A DNA stretch of 43,555 nt. Source: an uncultured Clostridia bacterium. GTDB lineage: Bacteria; Bacillota; Clostridia; Christensenellales; Borkfalkiaceae. The stretch's first letter is position 1. Each line of letters begins with the position of its first letter. Both the position numbers and the translations under genes were made by a program. Below the pieces are notes generated by a model. It was not told the origin of the DNA, did not search any database, and worked only from the letters and a program-made list of their open reading frames with translations. Below are positions 304-16,238 of this stretch, piece after piece. The stretch covers positions 1 through 43,555 of the forward strand of contig CALVMD010000013.1 in the NCBI GenBank assembly GCA_944342025.1. The letters run 5' to 3'.

Positions 304-2013
304 TCAGCGGAGGAAAGCCTCGAAAGCCGCCTTCATCTTTTCATACGCTTTTTCAGCAGCCTCTTCGTCCTTGGCGCGGACGGAGTAATAGATCTTGAGC
401 TTGGGCTCGGTACCGCTCGGGCGGACGCAGATGAAACTGCCGTTTTCCAATTCGTAATACACGGCGTTGGTCTTGGGGATGTTCAGCGTTTCCTCCGTAC
501 CGTCCGCCAGCCTGCGCACCGATGCGGAATAATCGCGCACCGCGACGACGTTGTAGATATCAAATTTTTCCGCCTTTTTCGTCTTGCAGGCGTTGACGAC
601 GGCGTTCATCTCCTTCATCGCGTTCAGTCCGGAATATTTGATGCTGATATTCCTGTCGAGAACGTAGCCGTAATGCGCGTAAATGTCCATCAGGCGGCCG
701 TAAACGCTCTGTTTTTTATAAGTGTAATAGCAGACCATCTCTGCGCAGAGCATGCTCGCAACGACCGCGTCTTTATCGCGGCTGCCCTCCGTGCCGCGCA
801 GATAACCGCAGCTCTCTTCGAAACCGAACAGGAAAGTATGCGAATGATCCGCCTCGTATTCCTTGATCTTTTCGCCGATGAATTTGAACCCGACGGGAAC
901 ATCGACAAGCTCCACGCCGAAATCGTCGCAGATCGCTTTCGCCATGCCGGTCGTGACGAAACTCTTGACGACGACGCCGTTTGCGGGAAGTTTTCCGTCC
1001 TCTTTAAGCCGCGTGAGGATGTAATCGAGGAGCAGGATGCCGACCTGATTGCCCGAAAGCGCGACGAACTCGCCTTTGTCGTCTTTGACGGCGACGCCCA
1101 GGCGGTCGCTGTCGGGATCGGTGCCGAATACGACGTCGGCATTGATCTTCTGCGCGAGCGCGATACCCATCGAAAGCGTCTCTTTAAATTCGGGGTTCGG
1201 AACTTCGACCGTAGAAAATTCGGTATCCTTTTTCACCTGTTCGGGCACGACGGTGACGTTGATCTTCAGCTTTTTGAGGATGGTCGTCACGGGCACATAG
1301 CCGCTGCCGTGCACGGGCGTATAGACGAGTTTGAGGTCCTTGCCGACCTTTTTGACCGCCTCGGGCGAGAGGGTGAGTTTGGTCAGTTTTTTATAATAGC
1401 TCTTATCGACGGACGCAGGCACCTTTTTGATGAGGGAGGAACCCGCCGCCTCTCTGACCGAGAAATAATCGGCGATCTTTTCGATGAATCCTACGACGAC
1501 TTCGGTCGCCTCGGGAGACATCTGCGCGCCGTCTTCGCCGTACACTTTATAGCCGTTATATTCTTTGGGATTGTGGCTGGCGGTGATCATGATCCCGGCG
1601 ATCGTGCCGAGTTTGCGCACCGCATACGAGAGCATGGGCACTGGATGCACGTCGGAGAAGAGATACGCGACGATCCCGTTTGCAGCGAGGACGCCTGCCG
1701 CCGCGCGCGCGAATTCGTCCGATTTGCGGCGGGTATCGTAAGAAATGACGACGCCCCGTTTCATCGCAACGGCGCCGAGCGACTTGATATATTCGGAAAG
1801 CCCCTGCGTGGCGCGGCGGACGGTGTATACGTTCATCATGTTCGTTCCGTAACCGATAATGCCGCGCATGCCCGCCGTACCGAATTCGAGTTCGGCGCCG
1901 AATCTGTATTCGATCGCCTTGTCATCGCCGGAAACGGACGCGAGCTCTTTCTTCCCCTCCTCGTTCATGGCGGGAGAATTCAGCCACTTTTCATACTCTG
2001 CTTTATAATCCAT
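304..2013 (-). CDS. Phosphoglucomutase/phosphomannomutase family enzyme
   Basis: A 569-residue cytoplasmic alpha-D-phosphohexomutase that interconverts hexose 1- and 6-phosphates, linking glycolysis to cell-wall and glycogen precursors. All four active-site signatures are present: the phosphoserine loop TASHNP (144-149, Ser146), the metal loop GTDPDSDR (297-304), the sugar-binding GFEES (397-401) and the phosphate-binding RPSGTEPK (531-538). Length matches PgcA-type bacterial enzymes. The ATG start follows GGAGG (2024-2028). It is the last gene of a leftward operon behind two membrane-protein genes. Whether glucose or mannose phosphate is preferred cannot be read from the sequence. Confidence 0.95.
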   Translation of the reverse strand: MDYKAEYEKWLNSPAMNEEGKKELASVSGDDKAIEYRFGAELEFGTAGMRGIIGYGTNMMNVYTVRRATQGLSEYIKSLGAVAMKRGVVISYDTRRKSDEFARAAAGVLAANGIVAYLFSDVHPVPMLSYAVRKLGTIAGIMITASHNPKEYNGYKVYGEDGAQMSPEATEVVVGFIEKIADYFSVREAAGSSLIKKVPASVDKSYYKKLTKLTLSPEAVKKVGKDLKLVYTPVHGSGYVPVTTILKKLKINVTVVPEQVKKDTEFSTVEVPNPEFKETLSMGIALAQKINADVVFGTDPDSDRLGVAVKDDKGEFVALSGNQVGILLLDYILTRLKEDGKLPANGVVVKSFVTTGMAKAICDDFGVELVDVPVGFKFIGEKIKEYEADHSHTFLFGFEESCGYLRGTEGSRDKDAVVASMLCAEMVCYYTYKKQSVYGRLMDIYAHYGYVLDRNISIKYSGLNAMKEMNAVVNACKTKKAEKFDIYNVVAVRDYSASVRRLADGTEETLNIPKTNAVYYELENGSFICVRPSGTEPKLKIYYSVRAKDEEAAEKAYEKMKAAFEAFLR

Positions 2014-2079
2014 ATCATATACCTCCGAAGGGCGAACCCTTCTAAATTTTATCCTTTAAAGCGCGTTTCGCGCACGGGA

Positions 2080-3054
2080 TCAAAGTTCGAAATCGTCGTA
2101 AAAATTTTCCTGCTCTTTCGCCTCTTTCGGCTTTACGATCTTGTCTTCCGCCAAAAAATATTTTTTCTTTTCAAAAGTATAATAGGAAACAAACTGAATA
2201 CACACGAGCATGACAAAAGACATGGGCACCACTAAAAGGAGCGCCGCACCGAAAGAGCAGAACGCCCCGCCCACGCCGAGGCAGAGGATCAACAGGCAAG
2301 TCACCAAATACGTAGAAAAAAGGGTTCCGAAATTACCGCGGCATTGAGAAAAGCCTTTTCTGAACGCAGCCGACAATTTGCATTGATCGCTCACAAGGGC
2401 GGGTACCATGCTGTTGAAAACGGTGAGTTTGACCGCCTGCGAAACGAGGAACAGGGCCACCGACAACATCAGCGCGGCCGCCGTCGCCACGACGGCAAAC
2501 GAAATGATGTTCAGAAGGATGAGAAAAAATACATAGCAAAGCGCCAATACCGCAGCGTCGTAAACAAATGTAACAGGGACATAAATGACCTGCCACAGCG
2601 CAGCTTTTCCGAGATTTTTTATATATGCGGAAGAAAAGGGCGTCTTGGCATAGCTGGACATATTATCGTCGATCAGCCCGCCGAGCACAAAATTGCCCAT
2701 GCCGCTGAGAAAACGGAAAAGCAAAAGCACAACGACGGCGGATACGACGACGAACACCAGCCTTCCCGTTTCCGCAGAAATCAGCCTGCCGAGCGCGGCA
2801 ATCCCGGAACTGAATTCCGACGGAAATCCGTTCAGAAATTCCGTATTGCCCGAGACGAGAGCGCGCAGAAAGTCCTTGATCAAAACAACGAGAGATGAAA
2901 ATTCTTCGCTGCTGAAAATAAACGCGACGTTGGGAACGATGAGCGCAGCAGCCAATCCAACGCATACGACGGAAATAATGATCTTATAAAGCAGAAATTT
3001 ATAATTGAGCGAAAAATTATCGATCAGCAGATGAAAGGCATTTTTGAAAAGCAC
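2080..3054 (-). CDS. Polytopic membrane protein, unknown function
   Basis: A 324-residue integral membrane protein that I do not recognise. It has about six hydrophobic segments: an N-terminal one around residues 23-48, a pair around 95-130, another around 155-200 and two near 245-290. The C-terminus is charged and cytoplasmic in character. The gene starts 12 bp past the stop of the upstream membrane-protein gene and lies upstream of phosphoglucomutase, so the three are probably co-transcribed. The N-terminal style (FKNAF..., aromatic and hydrophobic) resembles that of its upstream neighbour, and the two may be distant paralogues. A role in cell envelope or secretion is only a guess. Confidence 0.75.
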   Translation of the reverse strand: MLFKNAFHLLIDNFSLNYKFLLYKIIISVVCVGLAAALIVPNVAFIFSSEEFSSLVVLIKDFLRALVSGNTEFLNGFPSEFSSGIAALGRLISAETGRLVFVVVSAVVVLLLFRFLSGMGNFVLGGLIDDNMSSYAKTPFSSAYIKNLGKAALWQVIYVPVTFVYDAAVLALCYVFFLILLNIISFAVVATAAALMLSVALFLVSQAVKLTVFNSMVPALVSDQCKLSAAFRKGFSQCRGNFGTLFSTYLVTCLLILCLGVGGAFCSFGAALLLVVPMSFVMLVCIQFVSYYTFEKKKYFLAEDKIVKPKEAKEQENFYDDFEL

Positions 3055-3066
3055 CCTGCTCCCTCC

Positions 3067-3885
3067 TCAATATCTTTTTCTGAGATCGGCGCGCTCCTCT
3101 CCCGCCGCATCGAAATACGCGACGAACATGAGCGCACAGAAATACAGAAAAAGCAAAATGAAAATGATCTCGATAAAAACAAACACGGGCACGATCACGT
3201 CGAACGCGCTGCAAACGCCGACAACCAACAAAAGCAGCGCCACGCCCGCCAAATAGGGCAACATTACGGCCAAATACAATTTTTTCCTTTTGGACGAAAT
3301 CGCCTGATTGGCAAACACCATCGCATCCGCAAAGCTGTATCCCGTAATCTGACGGCAAGGCAGCCAAAGCCAAAACAAAGAAAATATATAGGACAATAAG
3401 AGGCACATACCCAGCGCGACGACGATCGCCACGACCGTGCGCGCCGCGCCCCCGAACGCGATGACGGCGACATACACGAGCCCCGACGCAAGCAACGCCC
3501 ATAGTTCGTAAACCGCGATCGCGACGATCAGCATCAAGAAGGTGGAAAGAAAATTATAATTGATCCTGCCGAAGATCCCCTTCAACGAGCGTGACCCTAT
3601 GCGCATATGCTTTTCTATAAACGCCAGGATCATCGGCATGAAAATCGCCAAGCACGCGAAACATACCAGCGCAAACGGCCAACGGCTTCCGTTGATAAAC
3701 GAGAAACAGTTGAACACGGTGACAAACGAAACTTCGGCATTCAGTTCGAGCAGATTTCTGGCGATCGTCTCCAAACTCTGCAGATCGAGCGCCAACGCAA
3801 AAAAGTAGGAGGGAATGAGCGCAAACAGGAACAGGAATATGAAATTTTTGAAAACGTATTTCCATGCACTGCCGATATAACCCAC
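3067..3885 (-). CDS. Polytopic membrane protein, unknown function (GTG start)
   Basis: A 272-residue integral membrane protein with about six hydrophobic segments and no recognised family. I chose the GTG at 3885 because GGAGG (3893-3897) sits 7 bp before it. Starting further upstream would run the reading frame through the promoter at 3953-3981. It is the first gene of the operon that continues into the second membrane protein and phosphoglucomutase. Its short hydrophilic loops and repeated paired helices resemble general membrane-insertion or stress proteins, but nothing supports a specific role. Confidence 0.7.
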   Translation of the reverse strand: MGYIGSAWKYVFKNFIFLFLFALIPSYFFALALDLQSLETIARNLLELNAEVSFVTVFNCFSFINGSRWPFALVCFACLAIFMPMILAFIEKHMRIGSRSLKGIFGRINYNFLSTFLMLIVAIAVYELWALLASGLVYVAVIAFGGAARTVVAIVVALGMCLLLSYIFSLFWLWLPCRQITGYSFADAMVFANQAISSKRKKLYLAVMLPYLAGVALLLLVVGVCSAFDVIVPVFVFIEIIFILLFLYFCALMFVAYFDAAGEERADLRKRY

Positions 3886-3952
3886 GTTTTGTCCTCCGTA
3901 CCGCGTCCGTGCGCCATGACGCACCGCACCGAAGCAGACGCTTACCGGATAC

Positions 3953-3981
3953 ATTATATAATAAAAAAAGCGTGATGTAAA
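3953..3981 (-). promoter_or_regulatory. Promoter of the membrane-protein/phosphoglucomutase operon
   Basis: On the minus strand, TTTACA (3976-3981) is followed after 17 bp by a perfect TATAAT (3953-3958). It lies 68 bp upstream of the GTG start at 3885. The remaining intergenic stretch, 3982-4144, shows no gene and no clear motif. Confidence 0.75.
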
Positions 3982-4144
3982 GCCTTTCCCGAATTTTTAT
4001 GCCAAAGTTTTGCGCCAAACCGCGCTTTCGACGGCATCACGGTCGTCTTTTTTAGGCAAACGGTACTTTAAAACGGCGTCCGATTTTCTGTTTTGTCTCA
4101 AAATATGCGTTTTTGCGCCGCAAAACGCTTTCCCGCCAAACGCA

Positions 4145-4176
4145 ATCGGGGCGCCCGCAAAAGCGGGCGCCCCGAT
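4145..4176 (-). terminator. Stem-loop at the end of the phage head module
   Basis: A perfect 14-bp stem (4145-4158 with 4163-4176) closes an AAAA/TTTT loop and touches the stop codon of the last phage gene. The following minus-strand bases are only moderately T-rich (TGCGTTTGG), so termination strength is uncertain. Confidence 0.6.
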
Positions 4177-4643
4177 CAGACCTGCGTCATGAGAAGCTGC
4201 AACAGATAATTGTAATACACGCCGAGATAATCCTCGGCGATCTTGTCCTCTCGGTAATCCGCAAGAGCCTCCTCTTTGTCCTCATATGCGAGATAGTATG
4301 CCTTGACCTCCGCATAGCGTTCGCTCATGGGCAGAGTATAATCGACCTCGTATGGCGCCTCGCCCGGATCGATCCCGGACGAAGGCCCCGAGCCCTCTTC
4401 CCCCGCATACAGGTCTTCGAGATCTTCTTCCAACTGTCGCCGTATGTCGGCGACGGCGGCGTCCAGTTTTTCTTTCAGATCGGCCAGGATCTTTTCCAGA
4501 ATGCTCGAACGCGCAGTCCGCCGCGCCGACGCCGCGGCGCGCTCTCTGTACGATTCACGCGCAAATTCGTCCTCCTCGGCGGCGATTTCACGCTCCGCCC
4601 CGTCGATCAGCCGCTGCGCCAATACATCCGTTCCCACAGCCAT
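4176..4643 (-). CDS. Phage module protein, helical/coiled-coil, unknown
   Basis: A 155-residue acidic protein, the last gene of the head module. Residues about 10-85 are strongly charged and helical in character, with many Ala, Arg and Glu residues, suggesting a coiled coil. The C-terminal part is rich in Tyr and acidic residues. The ATG follows GAGGAGG with good spacing and comes 12 bp after the stop of the preceding gene. In P22-like phages the gene after the gp10-type plug encodes the trimeric coiled-coil tail needle (gp26). Position and helical character fit loosely, but no specific gp26 motif is visible. Confidence 0.6.
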   Translation of the reverse strand: MAVGTDVLAQRLIDGAEREIAAEEDEFARESYRERAAASARRTARSSILEKILADLKEKLDAAVADIRRQLEEDLEDLYAGEEGSGPSSGIDPGEAPYEVDYTLPMSERYAEVKAYYLAYEDKEEALADYREDKIAEDYLGVYYNYLLQLLMTQV

Positions 4644-4655
4644 AAAAACACCTCC

Positions 4656-5957
4656 TCAGCATGCGCGGGAGTAACCCGCCGTCAGCGCTTCGACGCGACC
4701 TTCCTTTCTCGCGACGATGCAAAAACGGAACCGCGTCCCCCGCAACGACGTGCGCATCTTCTTGGTCTCCCCCGTCAGACACACGTCGAACGTTCGGCTG
4801 CCCCACTCGCTCTCCGCCGTCACGGTAAATTCACCCGACGCGGTCAGCGCGATCTCTTCGAGTATGGCGGGCGCACCGTCGAACGGCGGCAAAACGCGCC
4901 CGTACCATCTCCCCGGCACGTCACCCGTCCCCCGCAACGCGCGCACCCCGCCGTCCGCATAAAAACAGGCGATCGCGCCGGCAGGCGAAGGCATGCGCGA
5001 AAGAGCAGTGCGGCGCCCCTTCATGAAAAGTGCGCCCGAGCCGTCCTCCGCAAATACGGCGGTAACCGCGCCGTCTTCCGTATCGCCGCAAAAATACACC
5101 TTCCCGCCGCAGGCCGCCGCCGCGCAGCAGCCGCCCGAAAACACGCCGGCGTATGCAGGATAAAACGCCTCCGCACCGCCCGCGTCCAGCCGATACAGCG
5201 TACCGTCCGCGAGGAAAAAGATCTCACCGTTCTCCCCGCAGACCGACCCGCGGCAAATCTTTGCGAAAGGCGCGTCTATATCCGTCAACTCAAATCCGTC
5301 CTCTTCACCCGCGACGGTCAGCTTCTGCACGCCGAATTCACGGACGAGAAAGAACGCGCCTTCCGTCTCCGCAAAGGCAAGGATCTCCCCTCTTTCGTCG
5401 GGAAGATCGATATATCCGCCCTCCTCTTCAAAATCGTGCGCGTCGAGCAATGCGGAAAAGCGCACGCGCGGGACGCCGTTTTCCGTTCCGGCTGTCCACA
5501 GCCTGTCGTACGCATACCCCGCGCAGGAAAAGGCGGGAATATCCGTACAGACAACGGCGCCCCCGCTTTTAACGAGGCACACGTCCTCTCCGTCGGACAG
5601 CACCAGCGCTTCCTCTCCGTCATACAGCCGAGCCGCGGCGGGCGGCGCGGAAAAAGTCAGACCCGTATCCGAAAAAGCGCCGCCGTCGCCCGCACAGAAA
5701 TACAACTTGCCCGCCGCATACGCGGCGGCGCACATCCCCGCCGATGTGCGCAAAAAATACAGTCTTTCCGGTGCACAGTCTTCGGGAAAAGAAAATTCGC
5801 CAGCCCCGCCGCAGTATATCGGTTCGCCCGCCGTCTTGACAAGGCTTCCGTTTTCAACGAGCAGCCCCTCTGCGCTCGCCCCTTCTCCCGAAAAATCGCA
5901 TGCGACGCGCGTGAGGCTGCCTTTCGGCGAAAAAACCTGTTTTCTGACTCCGATCAT
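4656..5957 (-). CDS. Phage neck protein, P22 gp10-like plug candidate
   Basis: A 433-residue protein made of repeated short beta-strand units such as GKLYFCAGDGG, GEIFFLADGTLYRL and GKVYFCGDTEDG, suggesting a beta-propeller. The C-terminus ends in a beta-rich segment around RFRFCIVARKEGRVEAL. Its position two genes after the capsid gene, directly after a small connector-like gene, and its length match the packaged-DNA stabilisation protein gp10 of P22-type podoviruses (about 470 residues). I prefer ATG 5957 to the GTG at 5963: it forms an ATGA overlap with the upstream stop and has GAGG 8 bp ahead. The gp10 assignment is inference from order and fold character. Confidence 0.6.
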   Translation of the reverse strand: MIGVRKQVFSPKGSLTRVACDFSGEGASAEGLLVENGSLVKTAGEPIYCGGAGEFSFPEDCAPERLYFLRTSAGMCAAAYAAGKLYFCAGDGGAFSDTGLTFSAPPAAARLYDGEEALVLSDGEDVCLVKSGGAVVCTDIPAFSCAGYAYDRLWTAGTENGVPRVRFSALLDAHDFEEEGGYIDLPDERGEILAFAETEGAFFLVREFGVQKLTVAGEEDGFELTDIDAPFAKICRGSVCGENGEIFFLADGTLYRLDAGGAEAFYPAYAGVFSGGCCAAAACGGKVYFCGDTEDGAVTAVFAEDGSGALFMKGRRTALSRMPSPAGAIACFYADGGVRALRGTGDVPGRWYGRVLPPFDGAPAILEEIALTASGEFTVTAESEWGSRTFDVCLTGETKKMRTSLRGTRFRFCIVARKEGRVEALTAGYSRAC

Positions 5958-6502
5958 ATCCACCGCCTCGGCCTTATGTGCCCGTTTTTCTGTCTGCCCG
6001 CCGCGGCAAGCGCGTCTTTATAGCGCGCGTCCAGCTCGGCGGCGCGGTCGAGCGCACCTTCCATGAGCGAAAATTCGCACGCCGCGCCGAGCGCCAGAAA
6101 GCGCCCGCCGCATCCGAAATCCGTCTCGTCCCCTTCGCTCTTCACGTCGGGTCGGAAACGGTACCGCACCGTCGTTTCGCCCTTGCGGACGAAAATACCG
6201 TCAGCGTCAGCGCGGAAATGGAGCTTTTCCCCGTTTTCGCCGTGCACCGCAAGCACCTCGACGGGCCGCCCGGAAAAGGCGGAAAACAAAATTTTTCCGT
6301 CCGACAGGAACGTCTCCTCCCTGATGAGCGGGACAAAGTCGAGCGCCGCCTCGTTTTCGGTCAGGTTGAAACAGCGCAGCATTTGCGCCGCGTCCCTTTG
6401 CAGGGCGGCCGTATCCGTCCCGCCGGCGCCCGCCAGATAGTCGGAAAGATCCCGTCTCCCCGCCAATTCCGCCGCCGCCCGCATGATCTCTTTGACTTTC
6501 AT
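5954..6502 (-). CDS. Head-tail connector-like phage protein (gp4-like position)
   Basis: A 182-residue protein directly downstream of the major capsid gene. The N-terminal third is helical, and the central part contains beta-rich segments (FSAFSGRPVEVLAVHGENG). A helical C-terminal stretch (AELDARYKDALAAAG) follows. In P22-type genomes this position holds tail accessory factor gp4 (about 166 residues), which extends the portal, so a gp4-like adaptor is likely. The start at 6502 is set by GGGAGGTGAAA immediately before the ATG; a longer upstream reading would run back through that site. It overlaps the next gene by 4 bp (ATGA). Confidence 0.6.
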   Translation of the reverse strand: MKVKEIMRAAAELAGRRDLSDYLAGAGGTDTAALQRDAAQMLRCFNLTENEAALDFVPLIREETFLSDGKILFSAFSGRPVEVLAVHGENGEKLHFRADADGIFVRKGETTVRYRFRPDVKSEGDETDFGCGGRFLALGAACEFSLMEGALDRAAELDARYKDALAAAGRQKNGHIRPRRWI

Positions 6503-6628
6503 TTTCACCTCCCGCGCGGCCAAGCGCCGCGCCTTCGTGCGGCAAAAGCCGCTTTTGACCACAAACGGCAAAAAGCGGGCGGAAAGCGCCTCCGTGCCGC
6601 CGCTCTCCTCCCGCCGCCGTTCACATCG

Positions 6629-7792
6629 TCAGGCCTCGGTAATGCCGGACAGCATCGCCTGTCCGCAGGGACGGGTGCAGATGAGGTCGGCATACTTCAC
6701 GAGCGTCGCCGTATAAACCGGCTTGCCCGCGACCTGTTTGAGCACTCTCCCGTCGTCCCCTTCCAACCACTTCCAGTCGCACAGCTGATGCAGGCAGAAA
6801 TCCTGCGTATTGAGCAGATACATCGTGCCGTCGGGGCAGAACCTGTCCGCAACGACGGGAATGCCGTTGTACGAAATGGTACGGTAACCGCCCTCCAGCT
6901 CCATGACGTCGGTATTGCGCTTGCTTTCGGAAAACAGCTTCTGCAAGGCGCGCTTCACGCCCCAGCTGCACACGATAAAGTCCACACGGCTGCCTGCCGT
7001 CTCTTCCAACCTGTCGATGGCCGTCTGGATCGCAGTCTCGGTGATCGCACCGACGCTCGTCTTGATGTACGGGATCATCCACTTGTGCGTAGCCCTGTCA
7101 ATGCCGTAAAGGGAACCCGTCGTCTTAAAGATCGCGCCGAGGCCCGTAAGTTCGAGGTTATACGACCCCTGCACGCATACCTGGGCGCCCTCGTCGACGC
7201 CTGTGAGCGTCCCGCCCGAAACGGTGAACGTTTTATTGTCCCTGTCCACGGACAGAATGCGTCTGCCCTCCGCGCCCGATACGGCGCTGCCCTCATCGAG
7301 AAAATCGACGACCATCCCCTCGACGATGTTCTTCACGCTGCCGACCGTGACCGTCGTGCCCGACACGGACGACACCTCCGCAAGGACGCCGCTGCCGTCG
7401 CCGAACAGCATCCTGCCGAAATTGAAGGACGAAGAGCGGACCAGCCCTTCCATCTCCGCGCTGAGCAGGTTCACGAACGCACCCACGTTATTTTCGGACG
7501 CGCGCACAGCCTTGTCGCTGATCTCGATGGTACCGTACAGGTTTTTGAGCGTGGTGACGAACTGTTCGTAATTGTTGCCCGCAGCGGAAGGGAGATCCCC
7601 CTCTTCCGTACCCGCGCCCACGCCGCCGTTGACGCCGTAACGGGCGAGCCTTCTCACCTCTTTGCCCCACACGTCCGCCGTAGACTGCCTGATCCTGGCA
7701 AGAAGGGGATTAACCGCCGTGTTCAGCTGATCGGAGATCACCCCGAGATATACGCTTTTGAGCGCGTTGTCCGCGCTTGTCATCGTTACCAT
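6629..7792 (-). CDS. Phage major capsid protein (HK97-fold candidate)
   Basis: A 387-residue coat protein. The long N-terminal helical region, the E-loop-like stretch around residues 50-75, and the C-terminal segments with CSWGVKRALQKLF and a late GIPVVADRFCPDGTMYLL motif are typical of P22/HK97-fold capsid proteins. Residues about 138-210 form a beta-rich inserted domain (VSGTTVTVGS, NKTFTVSGGTL), like the surface insertion domains seen in some capsid proteins. The gene lies between scaffold-like and connector-like genes, the canonical order. An AAGGAG lies 13 bp before the ATG, longer than usual spacing. No truncation or frameshift is seen. Confidence 0.85.
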   Translation of the reverse strand: MVTMTSADNALKSVYLGVISDQLNTAVNPLLARIRQSTADVWGKEVRRLARYGVNGGVGAGTEEGDLPSAAGNNYEQFVTTLKNLYGTIEISDKAVRASENNVGAFVNLLSAEMEGLVRSSSFNFGRMLFGDGSGVLAEVSSVSGTTVTVGSVKNIVEGMVVDFLDEGSAVSGAEGRRILSVDRDNKTFTVSGGTLTGVDEGAQVCVQGSYNLELTGLGAIFKTTGSLYGIDRATHKWMIPYIKTSVGAITETAIQTAIDRLEETAGSRVDFIVCSWGVKRALQKLFSESKRNTDVMELEGGYRTISYNGIPVVADRFCPDGTMYLLNTQDFCLHQLCDWKWLEGDDGRVLKQVAGKPVYTATLVKYADLICTRPCGQAMLSGITEA

Positions 7793-7840
7793 TGTTCCGT
7801 TAAAACTCCTTATGAATTTATTGAGAGAGAGCCGCCTGCG

Positions 7841-8314
7841 TCAGTCCCCTTTCGAAAAGAGATCCCTCGCAAGCTCTGCCGCCTCCCTGAAATCGCGCGG
7901 CCGCCTTTCCGGCGCGGAAACGTGCGTTCCGTCCCCCGCCATCACGGGCGGTGCGCCCTTGCGGACGGAAACGAGATATTCGGCGATCACTCTTTTGCGC
8001 AGCTCGTCCGAAACCCCGTCCGTCCCTTCTTCCGATCCCGTGACCTGCCCCGAGTGCACGGCCGCCGCGGGCGGCTGTGCGTTATCGCCCGCAGGTCCGG
8101 CCGCCTCATTGCTCGAAGCGCGCCCTTCCAACTCTCTGAGCCGCTGACTGCGGCGGGTAAATTCAGCTTCCAGCGAGTTGTACGCATTCAGAAGGGCATC
8201 CACGCTCTTGAATTTCCCCAGATCCGCAGGCGCCGCCGCGCCTCCTTCCGTACGGGCCTCCGCCCCGTGCGCCGCTGCCTGCGGCGCGCCGATGTTCTCC
8301 TTCTCCTGTTCCAT
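7841..8314 (-). CDS. Scaffolding-like phage protein
   Basis: A 157-residue, Ala-, Glu- and Gly-rich hydrophilic protein of low complexity. It has a helical, coiled-coil-like centre (residues about 35-70, with heptad-like Leu spacing) and a basic, charged C-terminus. Small, disordered and charged proteins coded between portal and coat protein are usually scaffolds that guide capsid assembly through a C-terminal helix. The position supports that role, but the sequence alone does not prove it. GGAGG lies 7 bp before ATG 8314, and the start is 2 bp past the portal stop codon, indicating translational coupling. Confidence 0.65.
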   Translation of the reverse strand: MEQEKENIGAPQAAAHGAEARTEGGAAAPADLGKFKSVDALLNAYNSLEAEFTRRSQRLRELEGRASSNEAAGPAGDNAQPPAAAVHSGQVTGSEEGTDGVSDELRKRVIAEYLVSVRKGAPPVMAGDGTHVSAPERRPRDFREAAELARDLFSKGD

Positions 8315-8316
8315 AT

Positions 8317-10218
8317 TTAAACCTCCGTATTTTTTGCGGCGTCTGCCGCCGCATTTTTTTCGCGCATCGCCTTATGCAGGGCGATGTGTTTCAAAAATCT
8401 CTCCTTTGCGCCCGCTCCGCACTTTTTGAACTCGCCCGACAAGAGATAGCGTACATGTTCTTCGATGTGCAGCGCATGGTCGTCATAGTCGTCCGCCGAG
8501 ACTTCTTCCTTTGCAAGCCGCAGATTTTCTTCCGCCGCCTTGTCCGCGTGCAGCTGCCCGAGCCCGCGCGCGTTTTCCAATCCGCCGAACCCGAGCGCGT
8601 TGAGCACGCGCCGCTTCGTATCGGCGGAGACTTTTCCGTCTTCGCCCGCAAGCAGCCCCATATTGTAGATCTCATAGATGAGCGAGCGATTCTCCGAAGG
8701 CGTGCGCGCGCCGTCCGACTCCGTTTCGAACACCACGTCGTCGGACGAGATGTCGCCGGAGGAAAAGTAGAACAGTTCCACCTTGCCGCCTTCGCCCGTC
8801 ATGCGCATCAGCCGCTGCGGCCCCGCAAACTCGCGCATCAGCCGCAAGATCTGTTTGGCGGCGCCCTTTACGGCGCGGCCGATGCTCGCCCGCGTCACCG
8901 AAAGGCGGGTATCGTCCAGATCTATCAAAAGTTGCAGCCCCGTCGCGCTCGTGATGCCCGTGCCGTTGCCGGAAGTCGAGCTGATCTCGCTGACCCCGCT
9001 CACGAGGGTAAATTCATCCAGAAGCCTCTCCTCTTCCTCCCGGAAATCGGACGGCATGGAATCGGACCCTATCATCTGCGGCGGCGTGGCGCCCTGTCTG
9101 TACACGAGTATTTTACCGGGCGCAAGCCCTTCTTCGGCGAGTTCGTCCGTATCCACCGAGCCGTCTTCGACCGCGAGGACACCCATCGTCAGGCGGTTGA
9201 GATATTCGTGTTTCCTGTTTTTTACGGCATTGAACGCTCGCTGAACGGGGATCAGCCTGTCCACGATGCTCCCGCCGAAAAAACTGCCCGAAAGCTCCAC
9301 CGCGCACTGTTTCGTGAACGGGAACGTGCGCGTCCCTTCCGCACCGTTCGCGTACGGCAGCGGTCCGTCGTAGACCAAAACGTCCCCCGCCACGACGGTA
9401 AACCGCCCCGCAGGATAAGCCGGAGTCGGCTTTTTATACCGCTCGATAACGATCTCCGCATCGCGCACCGCCGTCTCCGCGCGGCTCCCCTGCCCGCCGA
9501 TGAAGTGCATGGGCGAAGAGCGCGGCGCAAAGGAAAATTCCCGTATCTCCCGCCCCGGCACGCGCACGCCGTACAGCCTTTCGATCTCGTCGGTGCGCAT
9601 AGCCCTTGCGTGGATCAGCCCGGAAAGCTCTTCCACCGTTTCCGCGCTCAGATCGTCGGGATAGATCTCGAAGGGCGACACCGCCGCCACGCGCACCGCG
9701 CCTTCATAGACGGGAGAACCGTCCGCCGCACCGATCTTTTTGCCGCCCGTCTCGTCCCACACGATCTTATAGAACGCGGTGCCGCACGTCTCGCTCCAAA
9801 CCGTCGCCTTGTCGATCATGCCGTCCATATCGCACTCTTCGCACACCGCTTTGAGCACATTGGACGAGATCTTCGCCGTGCGCAGATCGCTTTCCTGATC
9901 GCTCGCCGCGCGCACGCTCAGCGCCGGGCGCATGGACGAGAGCTTTGCACAGCGGGTATCGATCGCGGGCGCGATATGATTGAATACCCGCCTGTACTGC
10001 CACGAATAGCGCGGCTCTTCCTCTTCCAGTTCGCCCGCCGGGTTGATGTCGCAGTACTGGTTTCCCGCAAGAAAATTCATGTTCAGCTCCCAGCCCCGCT
10101 CCAACAGCCTGCGCTCCGTCTGCCGCTTTGCAAACTCTTCCTTCACCTTGCGCACCAGCCGTTCGGCCGCGCGCCCGTCCGCAGCGCTTATGTAAACGCC
10201 GCCGTCATTGTCCTGCAT
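8317..10218 (-). CDS. Phage portal protein (P22-like)
   Basis: A 633-residue portal protein. The dodecameric portal is the DNA entry channel at one capsid vertex and the docking site of the terminase. An N-terminal helical segment is followed by a conserved-looking block (FLAGNQYCDINPAG and YRRVFNHIAPAIDTRCAKL). A DNA-channel region follows, and a long helical C-terminal region (residues about 430-620) resembles the crown and barrel helices. Length is closest to P22-type portals (about 725) rather than shorter HK97-type portals. The ATG follows GAGGAGGTAAAAA and overlaps the upstream small gene by 14 bp. Confidence 0.85.
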   Translation of the reverse strand: MQDNDGGVYISAADGRAAERLVRKVKEEFAKRQTERRLLERGWELNMNFLAGNQYCDINPAGELEEEEPRYSWQYRRVFNHIAPAIDTRCAKLSSMRPALSVRAASDQESDLRTAKISSNVLKAVCEECDMDGMIDKATVWSETCGTAFYKIVWDETGGKKIGAADGSPVYEGAVRVAAVSPFEIYPDDLSAETVEELSGLIHARAMRTDEIERLYGVRVPGREIREFSFAPRSSPMHFIGGQGSRAETAVRDAEIVIERYKKPTPAYPAGRFTVVAGDVLVYDGPLPYANGAEGTRTFPFTKQCAVELSGSFFGGSIVDRLIPVQRAFNAVKNRKHEYLNRLTMGVLAVEDGSVDTDELAEEGLAPGKILVYRQGATPPQMIGSDSMPSDFREEEERLLDEFTLVSGVSEISSTSGNGTGITSATGLQLLIDLDDTRLSVTRASIGRAVKGAAKQILRLMREFAGPQRLMRMTGEGGKVELFYFSSGDISSDDVVFETESDGARTPSENRSLIYEIYNMGLLAGEDGKVSADTKRRVLNALGFGGLENARGLGQLHADKAAEENLRLAKEEVSADDYDDHALHIEEHVRYLLSGEFKKCGAGAKERFLKHIALHKAMREKNAAADAAKNTEV

Positions 10219-10477
10219 TTTTTACCTCCTCTTCCCGCAAGAGTGCCAACAGCCTCTCTTTTTCCGCTCTGAGCTGCTCGTCCGTGAGCGCCCGCACGGG
10301 CGTCTCCTCTTCCGAGAGCATTTTTGCCGCCGTCACGTCGGGCGGCACCGCCTTTTTTGTCACTTTCCGCCGCAAAAGCACCGCCTCACCCTCCTGAAAA
10401 GCGAACTCTTCCACCACTTCGTCCGCCTCGAACCCGAGGGCGCGGCGGCGAAGGGCGTCTTCGATCTCCCTATCCAC
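10205..10477 (-). CDS. Small phage packaging-region protein, unknown (GTG start)
   Basis: A 90-residue, highly charged helical protein between the large terminase and portal genes. Its centre (LLRRKVTKKAVPPDVTAAKML) resembles the C-terminal segment of small terminase subunits or related packaging proteins of clostridial phages, where a lysine-rich stretch is followed by PPD and helical residues. The C-terminal half is a likely coiled coil. GTG 10477 is chosen because AAGGAGG sits 4 bp before it. It overlaps the terminase stop by 8 bp and the portal start by 14 bp. A small-terminase role is possible but unproven; no other terminase small subunit is visible in the window. Confidence 0.6.
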   Translation of the reverse strand: MDREIEDALRRRALGFEADEVVEEFAFQEGEAVLLRRKVTKKAVPPDVTAAKMLSEEETPVRALTDEQLRAEKERLLALLREEEVKNAGQ

Positions 10478-11912
10478 CGTACCTCCTTCGATCGCGCAGC
10501 CTGCGCATCAGTTTCTGTTTGTCGCGCTGTACGTCCGTCAGCGGCTTTGCGGGCGGGTCTCCTTTCGGCTTGGTCATCAGGTAATACCGAAGTTCGTCCA
10601 GCGCATGATCGTCACGCTTTCTCGGCACGTCGCCGCTGCCCCAGAAATACCCCTTGATCTCGCGGATCAGGTTGACGCAGTTGCTGAAAATGTACAGCCT
10701 CTGTCCGCCCCCGCCGCCGAGAAGATAGCTTTTCACCCGCGCGATGCCCGCGAACAGGTCTTTGTTCACGTTGGCGTTCACATTGATGCCGCGCTCGTAA
10801 AACAGCTCGCTCACGCTCTTTACGCCCGCCAGCGTGCGCTGGTTGGCGGCCGAATCGATGAGTGCGCCCAGCCTGCCCTGAAAGTCGGTGTGCCACCCGA
10901 GTTCTTCGCTGATCTCTTTGATGCGGCGCGCGTGATAGTCGATGTCGCGCTTTGCCTCGTAATGCTCGGCGACGGCGTAAACGTTCCCGTCAAAATCGAC
11001 GGCGTACCAGTGCGCCGAGAGCGGATTGTTCAGCCCGGGATCGATCGAGATCATGTCCTGCCATTCGAACGGGACGGGAAAGGGCTCAATTACGTGGATA
11101 CGTTCGTCGAATTCCGGGTACACCAGCCCTTCTTCCACGCAAAAGCGGCCGTAGCGCCGGCTCTCCAATTCCCGTTCGCCGAGCGCCGCGCTCATGCGCT
11201 CCGTCTCCTTTTTATCCAGAAACGGATTGTCCGCCCATTCCATGAATTCGTACCACACTTCGGGGTCTCCCCGTTTGTTGAGATAGATCTCGTCGAACAG
11301 AAAGGTCAGCCCCTTGAGCGGAGTCATCGTGCCGAAAATGTCTCCCTTTCTGTCCAGCACGCGCATGCGGCACTCCTCATAGATCTCGCGGGGCGGTTCC
11401 TCGTCGAACCAGACGAAATCGAGCGAACTGCCCTGAAATTTTTCCCGCCCCTGATCGCAGCTTTTGAACCCGATGACCGAAACGCCGCCGAACACGTTCC
11501 GCACGCGTATCTGATCGATCACGCCCGTGTCGGGAGAACTTTTTTTGCCCGAAAGCATGGTGATGTCTTCGATCCAGTCGGGGTCGAGATAGGAAAGCAC
11601 CTTTTTCTGCGCAACGTCGCGCTGTACCTGCTGCGAAAGGGATACGACCCAGCCGAACACGCCGTCCCTGTTCTTTCTGTACGGGTGTACGCCGCGCGCC
11701 AGATACGCGCATTCGGCGGCGCCGCACTCCGTTTTTCCGCTCCGGTTGCCGCCGAACACCCAGCGGTTGCGCTTTTTGCATTTGTGGAAGGCGATCTGCT
11801 TTTTATGCTTGACCCGCCCCGCATTGTAAAGCTCGAGCGCACCCTTTTTCGCGCGGCGGCGCTCCTCGCCTTCGATCTCCAAAATTTTTCCGATGATGTC
11901 TCTTTCCTGCAT
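10470..11912 (-). CDS. Phage terminase large subunit (DNA-packaging motor)
   Basis: A 480-residue terminase that translocates and cuts DNA during head filling. The ATPase half has Walker A GGNRSGKT (54-61), Walker B VWFDEE (167-172) and coupling motif GTMTP (194-198). The nuclease half shows the expected acidic residues: SIDPGLNNP (Asp291), LIDSAAN (Asp353) and DDHALDE (Asp435/436 and Asp439). All catalytic positions appear intact, so the motor could still be active. Unusually, no good Shine-Dalgarno sequence precedes ATG 11912 (minus strand TTATTTTGTCAT). A divergent secreted-protein gene starts 93 bp upstream, separating this gene from the regulator at 12700. Confidence 0.93.
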   Translation of the reverse strand: MQERDIIGKILEIEGEERRRAKKGALELYNAGRVKHKKQIAFHKCKKRNRWVFGGNRSGKTECGAAECAYLARGVHPYRKNRDGVFGWVVSLSQQVQRDVAQKKVLSYLDPDWIEDITMLSGKKSSPDTGVIDQIRVRNVFGGVSVIGFKSCDQGREKFQGSSLDFVWFDEEPPREIYEECRMRVLDRKGDIFGTMTPLKGLTFLFDEIYLNKRGDPEVWYEFMEWADNPFLDKKETERMSAALGERELESRRYGRFCVEEGLVYPEFDERIHVIEPFPVPFEWQDMISIDPGLNNPLSAHWYAVDFDGNVYAVAEHYEAKRDIDYHARRIKEISEELGWHTDFQGRLGALIDSAANQRTLAGVKSVSELFYERGINVNANVNKDLFAGIARVKSYLLGGGGGQRLYIFSNCVNLIREIKGYFWGSGDVPRKRDDHALDELRYYLMTKPKGDPPAKPLTDVQRDKQKLMRRLRDRRRYGG

Positions 11913-12004
11913 ATGACAAAATAAGTGATAATACGCCCCTTTCTCCCTCTCCCCTCGTCTGCGGGCGGGGTAAAATGGTACCCAACCACAGAAAGGAGGC
12001 TTTC

Positions 12005-12727
12005 ATGAAAAAATTCCTTTTAATGCTGACGCTCCTGTTCGCGTGCGCGTCAGCCGTCTTTGCGTTCCCTTCCGCCGCACGCGCCGAAGGAGAAACGGAA
12101 ACTTATGCGCGCGTCACCCGCGACGGCGTATACTTTTACAGCACTCCCGCATCCGGCGCGGGGCTTTTCGTCTTGCCGCGCACCTATTTCGTAAAGATCG
12201 TGGATACGGCGGGCGAATATTACCGCGTCCGCTACCTCGATTCGTCGGGCGACGGGCGGGCGCTGGAAGGCTATTGCCTGGCCGACGAGATCGAACCCGT
12301 CGGCTACACGCCCGAAACGCCCTATCTCGTTTACAGCGTGACGGTGACTTACCGCGCCGGAGGAGATTATTCCCTGCCCGACTCTTCCCTTTCCGAATAC
12401 ACCGTCACGGCAGACTATTACGGAGAATTCGATTACGGGTCCTCCACGTGCTACTACGTGCGCCTGAACGGACAATTCGGCTATGTACCTGCCGCCTCCT
12501 GTTCGGTCGTCGACTATCCCGAAAACACCGAACATACCGTCCAGGAGACGCCTTCCTCCGACGGCGGCACGGCCGAAAACGAAAATTCGTTCGGAGCGCT
12601 CAACGTCGTCCTTATCTGCGTGCTCGCGGTCGCCGCGCTCGGAGCGATCTATTTCCTCTTCCGCCCCGCAAAGGGCAAAAAAGAAGGATCTCCGAGCTTT
12701 TACGACGAGACGGAAGACGTGTTCTGA
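12005..12727 (+). CDS. Secreted, membrane-anchored protein with SH3-like units
   Basis: A 240-residue exported protein. Residues 1-29 form a signal peptide (MKKF, hydrophobic core, ASAVFA and ARA cleavage-like sites). Two SH3-like beta units follow, ending in phrases such as GRALEGYCLADEIEPV and LNGQFGYVPAASCSVV. A low-complexity Thr/Glu/Ser linker precedes a transmembrane helix (about residues 196-215) and a short basic-acidic tail. AAGGAGG sits 6 bp before ATG 12005, which rules out the upstream ATG. The gene is antisense to the phage head module and converges on the regulator gene with a 28-bp overlap. It resembles the C-terminal part of the 13556-16180 protein. Binding to cell wall is plausible; the exact role is unknown. 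Confidence 0.75.
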   Translation: MKKFLLMLTLLFACASAVFAFPSAARAEGETETYARVTRDGVYFYSTPASGAGLFVLPRTYFVKIVDTAGEYYRVRYLDSSGDGRALEGYCLADEIEPVGYTPETPYLVYSVTVTYRAGGDYSLPDSSLSEYTVTADYYGEFDYGSSTCYYVRLNGQFGYVPAASCSVVDYPENTEHTVQETPSSDGGTAENENSFGALNVVLICVLAVAALGAIYFLFRPAKGKKEGSPSFYDETEDVF

Positions 12728-13263
12728 ACGCGCTCCGCACAGACCCTGCGCCCCGACGAACAAAAGAGACCGCCTTCCGCCCGCTTGTCCGAAAACATCT
12801 TTTCGCCTTCCGAGCGAAGCCTCTCCAACGCGCCGCAAATAGAGGGAAATTCCCCGAAAGTGCGCATAAACCAGTCCTCGTCCAGCCCGCACACGGTAAA
12901 AACTCCCGAAAGTTTTGCCGCCAGTCTCGACTGCCGCCTGAAATAAGTGCGCTCGGAAAAAGCGATCCGCCGCCCCGCAAACTCTCCTTCGAGCTTGCTC
13001 CTGCGGCGGAAATATTTATATTCCAGCAAAAACCGCTCCTCGTCGGAGAGGAACGAAAGCGCTTTTTCCGCCCTCTCCCGCAAAACGAGCAGCCCGTCCC
13101 GCAGCCGCAGATACCCGAGAATCTTTTCGATACACCGCTCCGTCGCAAAATCGGACGCAGAGGCGAGCGCCCTGCCCCGCACGACCTCCTCCGCGCACCC
13201 GATCAGCCGGCCCAGCTTCGGATACAGATATAAAATGATTTTCTGATACTCTTTCAACCTCAT
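12700..13263 (-). CDS. Possible phage late-gene regulator (ArpU/sigma-like)
   Basis: A 187-residue basic protein. Two helical regions are followed by a putative helix-turn-helix around LSDEERFLLEYKYFRR and FSERTYFRRQSRLAAKL (residues about 85-130), the style of ArpU/RinA-type late regulators and sigma region 4. Its position just upstream of the large terminase on the same strand fits a late activator of packaging and head genes. ATG 13263 has only a weak ribosome site (GGGG close to it). A frame can be extended upstream but lacks start support. The 3' end overlaps the convergent gene by 28 bp. The family call is tentative. Confidence 0.5.
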   Translation of the reverse strand: MRLKEYQKIILYLYPKLGRLIGCAEEVVRGRALASASDFATERCIEKILGYLRLRDGLLVLRERAEKALSFLSDEERFLLEYKYFRRRSKLEGEFAGRRIAFSERTYFRRQSRLAAKLSGVFTVCGLDEDWFMRTFGEFPSICGALERLRSEGEKMFSDKRAEGGLFCSSGRRVCAERVQNTSSVSS

Positions 13264-13385
13264 GCACCCCGCATACTTTTTGCCGTTCGCAAATTTATTA
13301 TTACATACTTTTTTGCCGAAATACAGCGTACCTGCCACAATTTTACAAACATATGTTCGTATTTTTTGAGCAGTATAGCACATAT

Positions 13386-13407
13386 AACAGGCATACGTAT
13401 GCATGTT
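13386..13407. repeat. 22-bp near-palindrome, copy 1
   Basis: AACAGGCATA, CG, TATGCATGTT forms a hairpin with 9 of 10 bp paired. It matches 19 of 22 positions of the perfect palindrome at 23901-23922. It lies between the regulator and the rightward secreted-protein gene. On the plus strand it is followed by TTTT. Confidence 0.7.
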
Positions 13408-13465
13408 TTAAAAAATTGATCGAAAAATGAAAACGCGGGCCGAGCGCGAAAAAGCAAAAAACTTG

Positions 13466-13494
13466 TCGACAAACGGAGAATTATATGATATAAT
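13466..13494 (+). promoter_or_regulatory. Promoter of the large secreted protein gene
   Basis: TCGACA (13466-13471) is followed after 17 bp by TATAAT (13489-13494), with an extended TG two bases upstream of the -10. The predicted transcript would start near 13501, giving a leader of about 55 nt. The leader contains an 8-bp hairpin (13518-13525 with 13530-13537) before the start at 13556. The rest of 13264-13465 shows no gene. Confidence 0.75.
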
Positions 13495-13555
13495 CGTTCA
13501 TATTAAGGAATACAAAAAAACGCGCCTGAGCGCGTTTCGGGAAAAACGGAAGACG

Positions 13556-16180
13556 ATGAAAAAGAAACTGATCACGATTTTAACGGCGGCCGCGGCGCTC
13601 TGCGCCCTGCTGTGCGGCGCCGTATTGGCAGGCGCGGAGGACGGCGACGCGGGGGATCCCACTCTCCTCATGCCCACATCTTACGAGCAATACCTCTCCC
13701 TCGACGCGCCCACCGATTTTGCCGTGAACGAGCGGTATATCGTCATCGCGGACAAACAGGGCGGCAGCGCCGTATTTTATATCTACGACAAGCAGAGCGA
13801 AGCCCCTTCTTATACCTCTTACAACTATGAAACGTCCAGAGACATCTCTTCCCTGAACCTTTATTCCTGCGCGGAAGGAGATTTTCTCTTTTATATCGAA
13901 ACGGGCAACTATATCTGTTACTTCGACCTGAATGCTCCCGAGCGCACCGAATTTACGGGTCTGAACGCCTCGTCCATGCTCATATACGACGGCGGTATTT
14001 ATTCTGCCGTACAGACAGGGGCATCCTGCGAACTGCGCTATACCCCCCTTGACGGCCTCACCGCGGGCACATCCGTCATTATCGAAGAGTCTCTCGCCTG
14101 CGCCAACCGCCCCGCATTCGCTCTCTATCAAGAGACCGTCTATTTTGCCGCCGATACCGGCGTCTATCAGTTTAATACTTCTTCCCTCTCCGCGGCCCTC
14201 TTTTCCGTCGGCAGAAACATCACTTCGTTTGCCATGCGCGGCACGACGTCGGCGGACATCGTTTACTGCGACAACGACGGATATCTGCACGTCGGCAGCG
14301 ACGAAGACGGCGTGCGGCTGAACGCGGGCGCGATCAAAAGCAGCGCCGGCACGATCGAAGCGGAAAATCCCGAAAACATCTTCTTTGTGCTTTGCGGCAC
14401 AAACATTTCCGCCTACGACGCGGAGACAGCCTCTTTTATCGGATATGAGATCGGAAAATATTCTTCCGCAACCAACCGCATCGGGCAAAGCGCCGCCGAC
14501 ATCTCCGCAAACGGAGACAGCCTCGTCATCGCGGATACCTCCAACAACCGCGTTCTTTTGGCGGTAAAGGGCGAAGAGGACTATTCTTACACCGCGATCG
14601 CGACCGACGGGACGCCCACCGCCGTCTGCGCGGGCGACGACGGGTTCGCCGTCGCGCTCGGCAGAGAACTTCTGCTGTACTCGTACGAGGGCGCCCTGCT
14701 CAAACAGTACGCGCCGCTTACGACCAATGTCGGCAGCATCGCCTTCTCCTACGGAAAGTACTATGTGACGGCGGACAGCCAAAACGTGCTGTACGAATTC
14801 GACCCCGATGCCGACGAACCGGCTACATACGCCCAGACATCCGAACTGAGCGGCGTGACGGCGGACATTTACGGCTCGCTGTACGTTCTGAGCGGCGGCA
14901 CGAACACCGCGTGGCGGCTGAACGCAGATTTTTCCGCCGAGACCGATTCCGCACTGACCGTCCCCGCCGATACCCAAAAGATCCTTTCCGACTTTGACGG
15001 CAACCTCTATGTCCTGGCAAACAACGCCGTCTACAAATTGAGTGCGGAGGGCTACGGTTCGGCGCTCGTTTCTTCAAACGGCGCGGACGGCAGCCCGAAT
15101 ATCACCGAGCTTGTGAACTACGACGGTACGGCGGCACCCATCGTATCCTTTGCCTTCGATTTTGAGAGCGGCGAAGCGTATCTCCTTTCGGACGGCTTTA
15201 TCGCGTCCACCGATTCCCTCGGCATCCGCTCCCTGGACAATCTTGCCGCGGGCGGCGCCTATGCGGAGATCTTTGCCGATCTCCCCGGAGAAACCGGCGC
15301 ACAGTCGCTGCAACTCGTCACGGTGAACGCCGGAGCGGTGACGGTAGCGCTCGATCTGAACGAACTGAACGAAAGCGCGTCCGCACTCCCCTATCACGGC
15401 TACGAAAAGGCATCCGAAACCAAAACCGGCGTCGTGCTCGCGCAGACGGAAAACGGGCCGATCGTCGCCTTTTACACGCGCGAACCCGAAGGAGAAGTCA
15501 ACGTACGCCACACGTACGAAGTAAAGCTCGTCCTCGGCGACGAGAGCGTCACGCCCGTCTCTTCATCCGAATATCTTCCCGACGCCGACATCACGGAAGG
15601 ATATGCCGTCAGCCCCGTCGGGCTGTACCGCTATCCGCTCATGCGCATGGGCACCAACGGCAGTTTTTCGGATTTCCGCAGGATGGTCGAACTGCCCCGC
15701 TCTTCCCGCCTCGCGGTTTTGGCAAAAATCAGCCACGCCGCGCTCGACGCGGACTACTACTATGTGTCCGTGACGATAGACGGAACGACGCGCTACGGCT
15801 ATGTTCCCGCAAATTTCGTCGTGGAATATGAACCTACGGGCGGCGTATCCGAAACGGCTTTCCGCTATGCTCGGCTGGACAGGAACGAAAGCGCGACCCT
15901 CACGGAGATCGGCGGCATCGAGACCGTTCTGCTCGAAAACGAGGAAGAGCTTAAAGTCTTCTACGAGCGCACGGACGAAAACGGATTTGTCTACGCGGAG
16001 TACAGAAAAGAAGACACAAACGGGACCGTCCGCACTTATGCAGGTTACATCGACCCCGACATCCTGTACGAGGCGACGCCCTCTGTCCTCGTCACACTCG
16101 TCATCGTACTCGTAGCCACGGCGACTATCCTGGTGTCCGTATGTTATCTGATTTTGCGAAAACCTCCGACCCTGCAATGA
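13556..16180 (+). CDS. Large secreted beta-propeller-like, membrane-anchored protein
   Basis: An 874-residue exported protein. The signal peptide is residues 1-26 (MKKKL, hydrophobic stretch, AGAED). A long beta-rich region has repeated blade-like units: RYIVIADKQGGSAVFYIYD, DSLVIADTSNNRVLLA, KYYVTADSQNVLYEFD and GNLYVLANNAVYKL. Two SH3-like units follow near residues 700-830, one ending GTTRYGYVPANFVVEYEP. A C-terminal transmembrane helix (VLVTLVIVLVATATILVSV) and short basic tail anchor it. The ribosome site is modest (GGAAG). The C-terminal layout matches the smaller protein at 12005. Function is not known; a cell-surface sensing or adhesion role is inferred only from architecture. Confidence 0.8.
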   Translation: MKKKLITILTAAAALCALLCGAVLAGAEDGDAGDPTLLMPTSYEQYLSLDAPTDFAVNERYIVIADKQGGSAVFYIYDKQSEAPSYTSYNYETSRDISSLNLYSCAEGDFLFYIETGNYICYFDLNAPERTEFTGLNASSMLIYDGGIYSAVQTGASCELRYTPLDGLTAGTSVIIEESLACANRPAFALYQETVYFAADTGVYQFNTSSLSAALFSVGRNITSFAMRGTTSADIVYCDNDGYLHVGSDEDGVRLNAGAIKSSAGTIEAENPENIFFVLCGTNISAYDAETASFIGYEIGKYSSATNRIGQSAADISANGDSLVIADTSNNRVLLAVKGEEDYSYTAIATDGTPTAVCAGDDGFAVALGRELLLYSYEGALLKQYAPLTTNVGSIAFSYGKYYVTADSQNVLYEFDPDADEPATYAQTSELSGVTADIYGSLYVLSGGTNTAWRLNADFSAETDSALTVPADTQKILSDFDGNLYVLANNAVYKLSAEGYGSALVSSNGADGSPNITELVNYDGTAAPIVSFAFDFESGEAYLLSDGFIASTDSLGIRSLDNLAAGGAYAEIFADLPGETGAQSLQLVTVNAGAVTVALDLNELNESASALPYHGYEKASETKTGVVLAQTENGPIVAFYTREPEGEVNVRHTYEVKLVLGDESVTPVSSSEYLPDADITEGYAVSPVGLYRYPLMRMGTNGSFSDFRRMVELPRSSRLAVLAKISHAALDADYYYVSVTIDGTTRYGYVPANFVVEYEPTGGVSETAFRYARLDRNESATLTEIGGIETVLLENEEELKVFYERTDENGFVYAEYRKEDTNGTVRTYAGYIDPDILYEATPSVLVTLVIVLVATATILVSVCYLILRKPPTLQ

Positions 16181-16201
16181 TCTGTTCAGACAGATACGGC
16201 C

Positions 16202-16238
16202 GCGCCGCCGCACTTTTTAGTGCGGCGGCGCATTTTTA
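16202..16238 (+). terminator. Rho-independent terminator after the large secreted protein
   Basis: A perfect 13-bp GC-rich stem (16202-16214 with 16219-16231) closes a TTTT loop and is followed by ATTTTTAT. It sits 22 bp after the stop codon. Confidence 0.93.

Follow-up and report, generated by a model that had tools for sequence, protein, structure and literature searches.

Is a compact row of phage head genes in the chromosome of an uncultured clostridium the remnant of a prophage, or a device that its host has kept? The question is raised by a stretch of 43,555 nucleotides (the window; contig CALVMD010000013.1 of assembly GCA_944342025.1), which is contig 13 of a 1.57-Mb draft genome, 77.9% complete, of a Borkfalkiaceae bacterium of the order Christensenellales. 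Nine genes at 4176-13263, all on the minus strand, are open and without internal stops, and are referred to here as the module. A sequence-only reading had described a tail-less head module that could be a domesticated, gene-transfer-agent-like particle, a capsid-only satellite or a prophage remnant. We find that it is a vertically inherited, domesticated podovirus module and, to judge from sequence comparisons, most likely a gene transfer agent (GTA) in the features that could be tested. We put at about 0.68 the probability that a P22-like podovirus was domesticated early, in an ancestor common to much of the order, and that its packaging, head and short-tail genes were kept to make a DNA-packaging particle.

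The module is near-universal in the window's family (f1). A match to its portal was present in 283 of 301 sampled genomes, in 17 of 18 genera and in 164 of 173 good genomes (at least 90% complete and at most 5% contaminated), as one match in 270 of the 283 and as two in 13. Nine good genomes had no portal match, and the large terminase subunit (TerL) was checked in four of these. In a sample of the whole order, the capsid gene was found in 237 of 396 genomes and 72 of 142 genera and, among the matches listed, in 18 of 33 families; the capsid family gave no match in 14 control genomes. TerL matched strongly (E <1e-100) in 40 of 41 genomes of family f19, where it was present in all 34 good ones, and in 35 of 43 genomes of family f3, a count that omits a 36th, weak match (G595, 1.5e-13); three genomes of genus g143 were without a strong match. 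Named relatives of the portal came from Candidatus Borkfalkia, which the NCBI taxonomy places within Christensenellales, and from Gallimonas, Coproplasma and Faecicola, besides many uncultured Clostridia. The portal of Gallimonas locus L074 is the same as that of f1 locus L218, which ties the window's family to named relatives. In the class sample 26 of 391 genomes matched, 12 of them outside the order, including 5/5 genomes of genus g207. In that genus the related capsid gene lies among host genes in G772 (L195, L272), and a TerL of 53-55% identity stood on a separate contig in three of the four genomes tested; g207 perhaps carries a second fixed, split element.

We compared a tree of TerL, portal and capsid together with an RpoB tree, for 33 genomes of 12 families. 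The two trees had 25 of 30 branches in common; each has 14 well supported branches, all of which recur in the other, and no conflict is supported. With labels shuffled, 0.23 common branches were left on average (maximum 5), and shuffling inside f1 alone left 15.2 (maximum 18). The path-length correlation between the two trees was 0.66. The trees omit G772, for which RpoB was fetched and whose module piece holds no TerL or portal; the row of G350 is without TerL. Taken singly, the TerL, portal and capsid trees also had no supported conflict with RpoB. As RpoB identity to the window genome falls to 58% in this set, the association is old. Judged by these trees, the head genes are vertically inherited. 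In locus L212 (G149, genus g8) the capsid is 47% identical to that of the window, compared with 55-75% in the other f1 genera compared, while portal and TerL are normal.

The module genes are also under purifying selection. The sequence-only reading had called for a comparison of gene order and of the ratio of non-synonymous to synonymous substitution (dN/dS) in relatives. Median dN/dS was 0.09 for TerL, 0.10 for capsid and for portal, 0.14 for the coiled-coil protein, 0.16 for the TerS-like protein, 0.18 for the adaptor, 0.20 for the nozzle, 0.23 for the regulator and 0.29 for the scaffold (Nei-Gojobori method, 14 close pairs and fewer for some genes, many pairs having dS near or above 1); the largest single value among module genes was 0.43, in the regulator. 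Of 70 loci with sufficiently long flanks, 56 kept the seven structural genes in order; the regulator stood upstream of TerL in 52 of the 70, and an opposite-strand secreted protein did so in 57. These 70 were drawn from 113 portal loci, after 43 had been dropped for short flanks; six duplicates had been omitted beforehand, and two loci were without a portal. Among the 14 loci not strictly ordered, five hold all seven genes and were flagged by the ordering of open reading frame starts, seven have no TerL within 9 kb, and the remaining two, L197 and L198, are not from members of the order. Ordered genes need not be adjacent: L096, L098, L111 and L115 have about 6 kb of other genes between TerL and TerS. 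The claim that motor and nuclease motifs are intact is borne out by the relatives, since TerL residues K60, D170, E171, D291, D353, D435 and D439 were kept in at least 98% of 94 distinct rows, and S58 in 91%, in a count of rows longer than 440 residues, which favours whole genes. We take these positions to be Walker A, Walker B and the four nuclease aspartates. Among the matches listed, 18 of 20 flagged for stops were read as having the stop at or past the natural end, or none.

Whether the particle would have a tail was addressed with predicted structures. AlphaFold2 models were built on 36 aligned sequences for the nozzle and 34 for the adaptor. The nozzle model (435 residues; predicted local distance difference test, pLDDT, 89.9) matched in Foldseek the podovirus tail nozzles Pa223 9nwi_Y (5.4e-16; template modelling score by query, TMq, 0.76) and P22 tail 9jg6_a (2.1e-10, TMq 0.61). 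The adaptor model (182 residues, pLDDT 93.3) had weaker matches, to the podovirus tail adaptors KHP30 7wmp_m (2.6e-5), SU10 (1.3e-4) and Pa223 9nwi_A (5.4e-4, TMq 0.68). A search of PHROGs at 0.01 gave nothing for the window copies of either protein. The gene order of P22 is portal, scaffold, capsid, adaptor and nozzle, as in the module. Because adaptor and nozzle with podovirus short-tail folds are encoded, the term tail-less is unsupported, and a capsid-only element is likewise not what these genes describe; by its predicted folds, the module encodes a short tail rather than none. In other families longer coiled-coil proteins occupy the position after the nozzle, and the four tested all match PF25588 (DUF7934). 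The shorter protein of the window, which had no Pfam match, PF25588 included, is possibly a short form of this DUF7934-type protein; a needle-like role would be a guess from position. In family f33 the module's DUF7934-type protein carries a fused LysM wall-binding domain (L194:4451-5446).

The arrangement in family f28 bears on whether the genes move by themselves. All 16 capsid-bearing f28 genomes tested have TerL, and the sole genome tested without the capsid, G327, lacks TerL also. In these genomes of 0.8 to 1.4 Mb the two genes lie 39-104 kb apart in seven of the 16, on different contigs in five and within 7 kb of each other in three; for one the place is not listed. We argue that such a split locus is hardly survivable for a self-mobile phage, but possible for a system of the host. 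One f28 genome carries a tandem pair of capsid genes (G388:C2:8035-10367).

The positions of the module genes and their frequent neighbours are given in Table 1. Phage-derived structural and packaging genes are thus placed in a host chromosome: as the sequence-only reading had it, the flanking genes are ordinary chromosomal ones, with matches for eight of the ten tested (phosphohexomutase, histidine kinase, response regulator, a radical-SAM DNA repair pair, phosphopantetheinyl transferase, glycerol-3-phosphate dehydrogenase and DnaX). The other two, membrane-protein genes that adjoin the module at 2080-3954, had no NCBIfam match; relatives of theirs also adjoin the module in two f19 loci (L186 and, inverted, L187). 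Neither the nine module genes nor these ten flanking genes include a recognised integrase, replication or lysis gene, again as first described, and thus no recognised means of autonomous replication or integration. The rest of the source genome was searched for the portal, the capsid family and the holin BhlA, and portal and capsid family each have one copy in the genome as assembled. The single strand that had been described holds, whereas the tight spacing with overlapping stops and starts is true of only part of the row: TerL and TerS overlap by 8 bases, TerS and portal by 14, and adaptor and nozzle by 10, but gaps of 2 (portal-scaffold), 12 (nozzle-coiled coil), 48 (scaffold-capsid) and 126 bases (capsid-adaptor) separate others, and a plus-strand gene sits between regulator and TerL. 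The protein of this gene matched no Pfam family above the cut-off. The scaffold-like protein had no match in family searches, and its profile found matches in 69 of the 70 loci. In the regulator family 19 of 31 aligned relatives match phrog_36, and the top PDB match of the profile was a SigF domain (7.9e-6). The profile of the large protein upstream of the regulator matched in 56 loci, compared with 128 for the portal profile, and its median dN/dS was 0.26. Rfam gave no match in window positions 1-18000.

Table 1. Module genes and conserved neighbours in the window
Feature	Position	Strand	Basis of the name
Coiled-coil-looking protein, 155 residues	4176-4643	-	position after nozzle; no Pfam match
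Tail nozzle, beta-propeller-like (place of P22 gp10)	4656-5963	-	predicted fold, Foldseek
Head-to-tail adaptor (place of P22 gp4)	5954-6502	-	predicted fold, Foldseek
Major capsid protein	6629-7792	-	NF033394 capsid_maj_Podo 1.7e-83; phrog_14242 8.9e-64
Scaffold-like protein	7841-8314	-	named from position; without family match
Portal, P22 type	8317-10218	-	PF16510 P22_portal 2.6e-17; phrog_156 3.8e-37
TerS-like small packaging protein	10205-10477	-	phrog_309 terminase small subunit 3.4e-7, residues 2-53 only
TerL, terminase large subunit	10470-11912	-	PF03237 4.1e-9; phrog_2 2e-28
Secreted or membrane protein, conserved neighbour	11975-12727	+	signal peptide, SH3-like stretches and C-terminal transmembrane segment read from sequence by eye
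Regulator, sigma-region-4-like	12700-13263	-	phrog_36 transcriptional regulator, E about 3.2e-5 to 3.8e-5
Large secreted or membrane protein, 917 residues, frequent neighbour upstream of regulator	13427-16180	+	without Pfam family

Several observations weigh against a GTA domesticated early in the order. Particle, packaged DNA and transfer are predictions from genes and folds. No receptor-binding fibre was recognised in the window, as the sequence-only reading had also stated, and BhlA was found in none of the 16 f1 genomes tested. In the sample of the order, 15 of the 33 families are without a capsid match among those listed, and family f31 has only weak TerL matches (28-33% identity, in 7 of 18 genomes), a pattern as would be expected of scattered prophages. 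Single-gene trees agree less closely with RpoB than the joint tree does (common branches: TerL 16/29, portal 18/30, capsid 15/30, nozzle 13/30), and the nozzle tree has two supported conflicts, both from one f19 genome. That genome is G511, in whose locus L186 the nozzle gene groups with f1, contrary to the RpoB tree; this may be a sign of tail-part exchange. Decay is seen in single genes as well: TerL of G623 is cut short at residue 422 of 480, which removes the last nuclease aspartates; the capsid of G573 ends at residue 372 of 387.

The same side of the balance holds four f1 genomes of two genera, all more than 97% complete, in which TerL is cut at about residue 278 and no portal match is found. 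With the intact module missing from four near-complete genomes, it must be dispensable. In the broken loci, L253 (G007), L266 (G123), L267 (G075) and L268 (G053), the cut falls between TerL motor and nuclease. All four inserts begin alike, only about 40-50 bases being visible in two of them at contig ends, and AAAAGTCT-type repeats lie near the end of the two longer pieces; its appearance suggests a mobile element that inserts site-specifically into TerL. The G007 insert (L253:2061-9522) holds Thoeris genes (ThsA and two ThsB-like) and a gene for a type II methyltransferase. In that genome adaptor, nozzle and coiled coil survive, and the row has lost TerS, portal and scaffold, together with the end of TerL and most of the capsid gene.

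Decay in single genomes would suit an ordinary prophage remnant, or a prophage at a favoured site, and IMG/VR contigs L007 and L010 do have an identical portal-scaffold-capsid order. The portals of L007-L010 are 38-40% identical to that of the module. Unlike the nine module genes, these contigs span 35-65 kb, and L007 and L010 carry many further genes, few of them recognised here. A prophage should moreover be sporadic, with gene trees that disagree with the host, and should have left recent site-specific integrations with tree conflicts. None of the latter was seen, and the only supported conflict concerned the nozzle of one genome; the portal occurs in 283 of 301 genomes of the family, RpoB congruence and purifying selection are evident, and the genes tested include no integrase. 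We therefore regard a prophage as very improbable. Some pieces of the module itself seem to be listed as viruses in IMG/VR: all portal 4-mers of the 'viral' contig L005 are common to bacterial draft contig L117. The small set of packaging and head genes would also suit a satellite or mobile island that forms capsids and exploits helper phages, but neither an integrase nor a replication gene was found among the genes tested, inheritance is vertical, and in f28 the locus is split, which leaves this explanation with little probability. The remnant and the mobile capsid satellite of the sequence-only reading thus do not fit the distribution, tree and selection data.

Two further explanations accept domestication and differ on what the particle is for. 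That the capsid serves as a DNA-free compartment or scaffold would agree with the place of the capsid among the most strongly conserved genes; the conservation of TerL and portal is as strong, however, and we consider this use highly unlikely. A released particle that kills or inhibits relatives instead of delivering genes deserves more weight, while still being unlikely. No fibre or ejection protein was recognised, one family has the LysM wall-binding fusion described above, and a like doubt is raised on the Faecalibacterium element, with PBSX cited, in PMC12946183. On the other hand, we argue that a conserved TerL nuclease and ATPase, with adaptor and nozzle, fit the packaging and ejection of DNA better. 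The domesticated, GTA-like option of the sequence-only reading is the one we favour, on its near-universal presence in the family, RpoB congruence, purifying selection and intact motor motifs.

How does such a GTA compare with known systems? Rhodobacter-type GTAs of Alphaproteobacteria have a longer, siphovirus-like tail, are inherited vertically over long times and do not propagate themselves. The module resembles them in the last two respects and differs from them in its P22-type portal and in the folds of its adaptor and nozzle, which are of podovirus type. The adaptor model matched RcGTA neck proteins with a Foldseek E of 0.099 or worse. P22- and SU10-type podoviruses resemble the module in matching folds and in the gene order from portal to nozzle. 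The nearest published case, set beside the module by description only, is FpGTA, a podovirus-like GTA in Faecalibacterium (PMC12946183, 2026). According to that report, it is in 12 of 12 Faecalibacterium genomes examined and packages fragments of 8.4-8.9 kb in capsids of about 40 nm. It shares with the module a host among Gram-positive gut Clostridia, an operon of TerS, TerL, portal, scaffold and capsid, a podovirus-like character and the lack of replication genes (PMC12946183). In FpGTA, however, TerS lies upstream of TerL, whereas in the module TerL lies upstream of TerS, and FpGTA has a further operon that encodes a tail fibre, a holin and an endolysin, none of which was identified for the module (PMC12946183). 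The same text describes PBSX as acting like a tailocin. PBSX of Bacillus subtilis is, like the module, a domesticated phage-like element of a Gram-positive host; unlike PBSX, the module is without a long tail and is spread vertically order-wide. GTA-like packaging in Christensenellaceae is also recorded, in 3 of 25 events, with no genes or operon named in the sections consulted (PMC12946183). We found no paper naming a GTA gene cluster in this order, in a search outside which most subscription journals lay.

On these grounds we can propose how a podovirus-derived GTA would work here. The sigma-like regulator would switch the operon on in some cells, and scaffold and capsid would assemble a small procapsid on the portal. 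TerL and its TerS-like partner would then package DNA, most likely that of the host, since no gene for replication or excision was recognised in the element; the particle thus probably packages the cell's own DNA. Adaptor and nozzle would seal the vertex, giving the particle a stubby tail. Lysis may be the way out, as BhlA and Phage_holin_1-like holins end the operon in several other families, and the released particles would bring DNA to kin. Particle formation, packaging of host DNA, lysis in f1 and delivery are all steps that we infer.

A wider proposition, to which we would give even odds, is that a podovirus-derived GTA became fixed close to the root of a large section of the order and co-diverged across 18 sampled families, with separate motor and particle loci in one lineage; it would then be among the widest and oldest GTA lineages, and its genes would be the set behind the faecal Christensenellaceae packaging. 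Well-described GTAs are few and come mostly from Alphaproteobacteria, as stated in PMC12946183. If our reading is true, a large group of mostly uncultured gut bacteria would have a new gene-transfer system, and phage domestication for DNA packaging would be old and widespread outside Proteobacteria. Existing faecal particle data could then be searched for this gene set, and the element would point to a way in which genes flow among these gut Clostridia.

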